Part shown: in pieces, positions 41,532 through 43,209 of the stretch
How the letters are laid out: each line of letters opens with the position of its first letter
Numbering within the stretch: the first letter of the stretch is position 1
Origin: Methanolobus mangrovi
GTDB taxonomy: Archaea > Halobacteriota > Methanosarcinia > Methanosarcinales > Methanosarcinaceae
Reading direction: 5' to 3'
Length of the DNA: 64,000 nt
NCBI RefSeq assembly: GCF_031312535.1
Contig: NZ_CP133594.1
Span: forward strand, 2,399,934-2,463,933
The notes under the pieces: generated by a model
Databases searched by the model: none
Seen by the model: only the letters and a program-made list of their open reading frames with translations
What the model was told of the DNA's origin: nothing
Translations under genes and position numbers: made by a program

Positions 41532-42398
41532 TCAGAGTGCTTCCAGTAAAGTGGATCTGTCTGCAAAGCGCTGGAAGAACTCTTTTCCCCAATCAATGGC
41601 ACTTTGCTTGTATGCCATTATATATCTAGGGTCATAGACTCCGCTTGTGGTTAGCAGGCGGAGGAGCATGAAATCCGGTGTTATCATAAGAGCTGAAAAA
41701 TGAAGTTCATCCGGGTATATGTAAAAGTTTACATTTGGGTATTCCATAAGTTTCTGTAACTGTTCTTTATTGTCCGATATGAATCTGGAAAGGACTTCTT
41801 TTGTAAAGATGCATCTGAAATCAGTTCTATTTTCTGCATATTTCATGAACAATGAAGGGTATTCAGAATGATACAATGAAGTTATTGCATCGATCTTTTT
41901 TGATTCCAGACACATGGAAATTGCTTTTCTACTAAGTTCAACCGCTTCACATAATTCGGGCTCTATAAGTTCGCAACTTTCCAGCTCCCTCAATCTGTTG
42001 AAAAGTTCCTGGGGGATACAATCTGTGTTGTGTTTTGTCCAGTAATCCAGTTTGCCTTCAAGGATGTTAAGGGTATCCAACAGTGGCTTTAGGTCATTGA
42101 CTATCAATCTCCCAAACTTGGAGAGCATATAAGCATCTTTTTCTTTAATTACCAGCTGCCCTTCTTCAAGTATTTTCATCTGTGGGAGTAAAGCAGGTCT
42201 GCTTTCATTAAGGGTCTTCAGGATAACTGGCATATCCACAGGTCCGTCCTGTAAAAGCATTAAGACATCTTTACGTTTTTCCGATCTGCTGATAGTCTCA
42301 ATTAATGCCCGTCTCATGCCTTCTTCTCCAATAATGTAAATTAAGATATTTTTTCTGCCATTGACCAAAGCCAAAGTAATCTGTGGCTCACTTTTCAT
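41532..42398 (-). CDS. FilR1-type winged-helix transcriptional regulator
   Basis: The 288-aa protein carries an N-terminal winged helix (RKDVLMLLQDGPVDMPVILK then RPALLPQMKILEEGQLVIKE) and a long C-terminal effector-type domain (MCLESKKIDAITSLYHSEYP, YPNVNFYIYPDELHFSALMI). This architecture is the methanogen regulator family with the FilR1/DUF1724 domain, as I recall it; many copies occur per Methanosarcina genome and some control methyltransferase genes. Target genes are unknown here. The translation start may be internal at MRRALIETISRS (residue 28). Confidence 0.75.
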   Translation of the reverse strand: MKSEPQITLALVNGRKNILIYIIGEEGMRRALIETISRSEKRKDVLMLLQDGPVDMPVILKTLNESRPALLPQMKILEEGQLVIKEKDAYMLSKFGRLIVNDLKPLLDTLNILEGKLDYWTKHNTDCIPQELFNRLRELESCELIEPELCEAVELSRKAISMCLESKKIDAITSLYHSEYPSLFMKYAENRTDFRCIFTKEVLSRFISDNKEQLQKLMEYPNVNFYIYPDELHFSALMITPDFMLLRLLTTSGVYDPRYIMAYKQSAIDWGKEFFQRFADRSTLLEAL

Positions 42399-42593
42399 CT
42401 GGCAAAATCAAGCATCTTCTGGCCTGTATTTCTTATTAAGTATAAATACTAAATAACCAACCACTTAAAAAGTAAAACACTCTCTTATAAAAAGAATGTG
42501 CTTTTCATCTGTTCGTTATTCAAAAGTTCAATAGTATGTCTTGACATCTTCTGTTATCAACTTTAATGGTTATTCAGGGACCTGTCAACAAGA

Positions 42594-42603
42594 ATAATAT
42601 ACT
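42594..42603 (+). promoter_or_regulatory. TATA-like element for the C/D box sRNA
   Basis: AATAATATAC, followed by another AT-rich element (ACTATATTT, 42601-42609), lies about 25 nt before the sRNA 5' stem at 42623. Confidence 0.4.
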
Positions 42604-42622
42604 ATATTTGCGTAGTATTTTC

Positions 42623-42686
42623 TGCGGCGATGATGATAGTTACCCCGACTGAGCAAAGGATGATGATATTTCTAACTGATGCCGCA
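42623..42686 (+). ncRNA. C/D box sRNA guiding 2'-O-methylation
   Basis: The 64-nt unit has all parts of an archaeal C/D box sRNA: terminal stem TGCGGC/GCCGCA (42623-42628 with 42681-42686), C box ATGATGA (42630-42636), D' box CTGA (42649-42652), C' box ATGATGA (42660-42666) and D box CTGA (42676-42679). The D' guide TAGTTACCCCGA (42637-42648) complements GGGGUAACUA, the conserved helix-69 sequence of 23S rRNA, at ten or more positions. The D guide (TATTTCTAA) is only 9 nt; its target is not recognised. It would assemble with L7Ae, Nop5 and fibrillarin. Confidence 0.88.
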
Positions 42687-42747: not shown

Positions 42748-43209
42748 TTATTCGATCATTATCCTGTGCTTTTCCTCTATCTCGGATTTTGGTAGTGTTA
42801 TGGTGAGCACTCCATCCTCAAGTTTTGCATTTGCTTCCCCTTCTTTGACTGCAGATGGAAGGCTGAATGCACGTGCAAATTTGCTGTAAGTACGCTCACG
42901 CATAAGGTATCCTTCCTTTTCCTCTTTGGATTCCTTGTGTGTATTGGCGCTAATCCAAACCTTGTTGTCCCTAATATCGATGTTGATGTCTTTCTTCTCA
43001 ACACCTGGAAGATCTGTTGTGACGATGATATTGTTATCTTTCTCTTTTATGTCCACAAGGGGAGTAAGCGTATCAATATCCATCATTTCAGATCTTGTTC
43101 CTTCTTCCCCAAATAAACGGTTGAGGCGTTCCTGCATACGTCTCATTTCCTCAAATGGTTCCCAACTTGAAACTGAAGCAGGTCTCCATGGTGTTAACCC
43201 AAATTTCAT
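42748..43209 (-). CDS. Small heat-shock protein Hsp20
   Basis: The 153-aa protein has the alpha-crystallin domain: PLVDIKEKDNNIIVTTDLPG, GVEKKDINIDIRDNKVWISA, and the closing strand AKLEDGVLTITLPKSE before an IEEKHRIMI tail (I-x-I type). It is an ATP-independent holdase. The N-terminus includes FEEMRRMQERLNRLFGEE. Strong GGAGGAG ahead of ATG 43209. A promoter at 43289-43297 gives an approximately 55-nt leader. Confidence 0.93.
   Translation of the reverse strand: MKFGLTPWRPASVSSWEPFEEMRRMQERLNRLFGEEGTRSEMMDIDTLTPLVDIKEKDNNIIVTTDLPGVEKKDINIDIRDNKVWISANTHKESKEEKEGYLMRERTYSKFARAFSLPSAVKEGEANAKLEDGVLTITLPKSEIEEKHRIMIE

Follow-up and report, generated by a model that had tools for sequence, protein, structure and literature searches.

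Gm1950 in helix 69 of Haloarcula marismortui 23S rRNA, equivalent to E. coli position 1909, is a detected modification, for which Grosjean et al. (2008) presented a C/D sRNA candidate with homologues in 25 archaeal genomes (PMC2584109). Pyrococcus sR41 was proposed in the same work as the probable equivalent guide for G1950 (PMC2584109), and Dennis et al. (2015) named helices 68, 69, and 71 as hotspots of methylation (PMC4644070). In M. psychrophilus, dRNA-seq and Northern blots revealed three C/D sRNAs, which are unnamed in the main text, and fibrillarin, Nop5, and L7Ae are expressed (PMC5378194). Excerpts from a cryo-EM analysis of M. acetivorans ribosomes, which deals mainly with the peptidyl transferase centre, mention Um2563, Gm2564, Gm2260, and m7G2615; a helix 69 Gm is not mentioned in those excerpts (PMC12605026).

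Herein, we describe a new, clear member of this already described guide family rather than a novel type of RNA, encoded in a window of Methanolobus mangrovi DNA (the window being the whole stretch of 64,000 nucleotides that was analyzed). We conclude with high confidence that this locus encodes a stand-alone C/D box sRNA that guides fibrillarin to methylate G1959 of 23S rRNA; its D guide is probably idle. The locus is real but ordinary, as a 2008 study had already described this guide and its target site in archaea. It shares the target nucleotide and the RNA class with the published haloarchaeal Gm1950 guide, and the haloarchaeal and Methanosarcinaceae copies found here have the D' guide GTTACCCC in common; the linker and the D guide differ. 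Boxes C and C' are canonical here, whereas haloarchaeal copies have degenerate boxes, often GTGACGA.

No Rfam model reached its gathering threshold at the locus. The top sub-threshold score, 28.8 against a cut-off of 45, was that of plant snoR38 (RF00213), which has C/D boxes and an AGUUA stretch in common with the locus. Membership in snoR38 was rejected: the model guide is AGUUAUCCCUGU, not AGUUACCCC, and the likeness is therefore architectural. The models sR1 (RF01152) and snoPyro_CD (RF00095) have the same box architecture, but their guides differ and their scores of 25.3 and 23.9 bits (cut-off 45) were below gathering; thus, the locus is not a member of either family. Pyrococcus sR41 was absent from the Rfam families with even a sub-threshold match to the locus. 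Yeast Am2256 (snR63) was also considered as a counterpart of position 1909 and rejected, since the published correspondence table pairs 1909 with yeast A2252 and 1915 with Psi2258 (PMC2584109). For the genomes of methylotrophic methanogens, the locus is a well-supported additional annotation at a site where Rfam models stay below threshold.

A complete C/D box sRNA was read at window positions 42623–42686 (+), with the C, D', C', and D boxes lying within a perfect 6-bp stem (Table 1). The preliminary description had claimed that the four boxes are canonical and the enclosing stem perfect; all four read exactly as it stated, the two arms form six perfect pairs, and its observation of a C/D box sRNA at this position is confirmed. 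A single G separates the 5' arm of the stem from box C, and a single T separates box D from the 3' arm. When both strands of the window were scanned for the four-box pattern, one site was found, the sRNA locus itself, and the arrangement was absent from all of 150 first-order Markov-shuffled windows. An A+T-rich, TATA-like stretch, probably the gene's own promoter, ends about 14 bases 5' of the stem. An element of this kind occurs at a similar distance in the Methanosarcinaceae copies, its exact bases being variable.

Table 1. Features of the C/D box sRNA locus, in window coordinates.
Feature	Sequence	Position	Strand	Remark
Putative promoter, TATA-like	AATAATATACTATATTT	42593..42609	+	Sequence read; probable own promoter
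Terminal stem, 5' arm	TGCGGC	42623..42628	+	Pairs with 42681-42686
Box C	ATGATGA	42630..42636	+	Invariant in 26 Methanolobus species
D' guide	TAGTTACCCCGA	42637..42648	+	With A42636, 11 nt pair with 23S GGGGTAACTAT
Box D'	CTGA	42649..42652	+	Sequence read; conserved among relatives
D'-C' linker, expected K-loop	GCAAAGG	42653..42659	+	GCAAAG, mean identity 0.99 in the genus
Box C'	ATGATGA	42660..42666	+	0.99 identity in the genus
D guide, probably without target	TATTTCTAA	42667..42675	+	9 nt; variable in the genus
Box D	CTGA	42676..42679	+	Invariant in the genus
Terminal stem, 3' arm	GCCGCA	42681..42686	+	Pairs with 42623-42628

The box features by which archaeal C/D box sRNAs are recognized, namely a box C of the form RUGAUGA, a box D of the form CUGA, and internal D' and C' boxes, are all conserved in relatives. 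The terminal C-D stem (kink-turn), with its six pairs, is likewise kept: across 22 distinct relatives, 93% of the stem cells are paired. Two stem pairs show double changes in relatives, e.g., C-G to U-A in genome G035; with so little variation in the stem, the covariation signal is weak.

A DNA search found the element in 37 of the 37 Methanosarcinaceae genomes compared. The pattern of box C plus the D' guide core AGTTACCCC was present in 60/60 Methanosarcinaceae genomes and in 0/60 genomes from other families of the class. This core is invariant in Methanolobus and also present across the phylum, and the D' guide is almost unchanging across the Methanosarcinaceae copies. Among 26 Methanolobus species, the boxes, the stem, and the D' guide core had mean identities of 0.97–1.00, while the identity of the D guide was 0.83 and that of the flanks 0.43–0.56. 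If the locus were a pseudogene or a chance arrangement without function, such a pattern would not be expected; the boxes, guide, and stem are under strict purifying selection across many genera, and this conservation refutes the explanation, to which we assign a negligible probability.

The most divergent Methanosarcinaceae copies, L044 in G035 and L045 in G034, have an extra base between the guide and D' (CTTGAGC). L045 has only ACCC, and the D' region of both genomes is shifted by one base. The 23S gene is absent from both assemblies.

The organism's own 23S rRNA contains AACAGCGGGGGTAACTATGACCC, which covers the target region in helix 69. Within it, GGGGTAACTAT pairs with ATAGTTACCCC through 11 Watson-Crick pairs, formed by 10 guide bases and the last A of box C, while the two D' guide bases nearest D' are unpaired with the rRNA. 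The pairing falls within the range of about 9–12 complementary nucleotides upstream of D or D' that characterizes C/D guides, and it exceeds the 9–10 bp that the preliminary description had set in advance as the minimum match of the D' guide to the organism's own 23S. By the D'+5 rule, guide position 5 faces G1959, the equivalent of E. coli 1909 in helix 69 and hence the nucleotide that defines the Gm1950 guide family. G1959 lies two nucleotides before the U of GUAACUA, exactly where the preliminary description had placed the target, and its interpretation of the locus as a helix 69 guide is supported. Shuffled D' guides reached at least 11 pairs with the organism's own 23S plus 16S in 7 of 1000 trials, so that the pairing by itself is only moderately significant; it is conservation that makes the target assignment secure.

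The genome also encodes the protein partners expected for archaeal C/D sRNAs: fibrillarin (PF01269, E = 8.7e-86), Nop5 (PF01798, E = 2.3e-57), whose gene is adjacent to that of fibrillarin, and L7Ae (PF01248, E = 2.7e-25). In archaeal C/D RNPs, L7Ae binds the kink-turns, and Nop5 and fibrillarin are recruited. By analogy with the known family, we infer that the sRNA is transcribed, assembled into an RNP, and used to methylate G1959. The transcript would form two kink-turns, a terminal one (C/D) and an internal one (C'/D'), and L7Ae would bind both, with recruitment of Nop5 and fibrillarin. In the organism's own 23S, the D' guide would pair with the 5' side of helix 69; the RNA would place the ribose of G1959 in the active site, and fibrillarin would methylate the 2'-OH. 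This yields a clear, testable prediction, a 2'-O-methyl group at G1959 (E. coli 1909). Two observations weigh against this reading: the two guide bases next to D' stay unpaired, and the excerpts on the M. acetivorans ribosome make no mention of a helix 69 Gm.

The same pairing could in principle serve another end, with the sRNA chiefly helping the rRNA to fold at helix 69, as a chaperone, and methylation being incidental. Such roles have been suggested for double-guide sRNAs of archaea (PMC4644070), and the guide spans the 5' strand of helix 69. However, the proposal concerns RNAs with two guides directed to different places in the rRNA, whereas the D guide here is without a target, and in H. 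marismortui it is known which nucleotide is methylated. We consider a chaperone role very unlikely and retain methylation of G1959 as the function of the sRNA.

For the D guide, the preliminary description had claimed no recognizable target. In the 23S and 16S of the organism itself and in the tRNAs fetched, we found no Watson-Crick match of at least 7 nt using the D guide itself, nor any useful contiguous match, which agrees with that claim. Thirteen versions of the D guide occur among 27 Methanolobus genomes. Since it drifts even within the genus and lacks a contiguous rRNA or tRNA target, the D guide is probably idle here, and its half of the sRNA probably serves as a spacer that has no target in this lineage. 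The alternative is a dual guide, in which the D guide directs methylation of a second RNA as well, whether a tRNA, some other RNA, or an rRNA site reached through wobble pairs. Consistent with a second target, the length of the D guide is kept, it drifts less (identity 0.83) than the flanks (about 0.56), copies in Methanomicrobiales and Methanococci have conserved D guides, and 10-nt matches rich in wobble pairs were found at 23S 2660 and in two tRNAs. Yet these matches, weak evidence in themselves, are the only kind found, and a guide in so many versions argues against a maintained target; we regard dual guidance as improbable and prefer an idle D guide in Methanolobus.

By contrast, Methanomicrobiales copies (L139–L148, L173–L175, and others) have a common conserved D guide, GCAGGGG, and Methanococci copies (L200, L243, and L291) have a common D guide, AATCGGCACTGT. 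Compared with 16S CGTCCCTGCTCC, in the Methanolobus 16S only, GCAGGGG forms 7 Watson-Crick pairs, or 9 when wobble is included. The Methanomicrobiales guide may target 16S CCCTGCTCC, a site which we take to be near E. coli 1384 in our own numbering. Thus, the D' guide stays fixed, and the D guide is lineage-specific. We tentatively propose, as a reading slightly less likely than not, that a D' guide directed to 23S 1909 has stayed the same in different phyla, whereas the D guide has been swapped between orders: GCAGGGG in Methanomicrobiales (possibly directed to 16S CCCTGCT), AATCGGCACTGT in Methanococci, and an idle sequence in Methanosarcinaceae. If true, nature would here provide a clean example of guides evolving module by module. 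The survey, with its fixed D' guide and its D guide differing between orders, is the modestly new part of this work.

In the wider distribution, a covariance model matched 151 of 295 genomes of the phylum. Of 40 distant matches fetched, 33 had GTTACCCC 5' of D', including matches from Methanomicrobiales and haloarchaea, and an exact-pattern scan of named genomes added copies in Methanocaldococcus and Methanothermococcus. The other seven distant matches (L160–L165 and L176) lack the GTTACCCC guide and were not counted as homologues. Three of these, L161, L162, and L165 of family f9, represent another compact C/D sRNA, weakly matched by the model, with the guide AAAGGACCCC(T) or AAAGGGCCCC and a different target. 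A single bacterial match, in a Niastella contig, had a poor score (E = 0.078) and was discarded, as was a match labelled 'Ignavibacteriae', which resembles the Methanoregula-type sRNA and probably stems from a mis-binned contig.

Within the class, no sRNA copy was found in genomes G037 and G042 (L296 and L299) or in families f2–f6 and f37. The target GGGGGTAACTAT is kept in the 23S of three Methanosarcinaceae genomes, including that of the window, in G093, a more distant genome of the phylum, and in G037 and G042. Since the latter two have the target without the sRNA, the target does not by itself imply this guide. The guide is very strongly kept in Methanosarcinaceae, and in the families without a copy it is possible either that methylation has been lost, leaving G1909 unmethylated, or that a different guide is used.

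The genome from which the window is taken comprises 2.62 Mb in a single contig, with four rRNA operons. Sister genomes are those of Methanolobus, and contig C16 of G016 and NZ_FOUJ01000002 of M. profundi carry the same element. The sRNA is intergenic, with an Hsp20 gene (42748–43209, −) on one side and a FilR1_middle-type regulator (41532–42398, −) on the other; read on the + strand, its predicted direction of transcription is opposite to that of both flanking genes. The order apgM, hsp20, sRNA, regulator (in some species), and cofE is kept across genera. The regulator adjoins the sRNA in only some Methanolobus species, which marks the stretch from the sRNA to cofE as a place where genes are gained or lost.

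A second C/D sRNA, with the stem GTGTGCC/GGCACAC, occurs in the same genome outside the window, at G000:C1:1310801-1310831 (+) and flanks (around positions 1501–1531 of locus L058). Its D guide CCCTATGAGT pairs over 10 nt with ACTCATAGGG of the intron-containing tRNA-Met(CAU) (L090), placing guide position 5 at C34, the placement expected for the known Cm34 guide.
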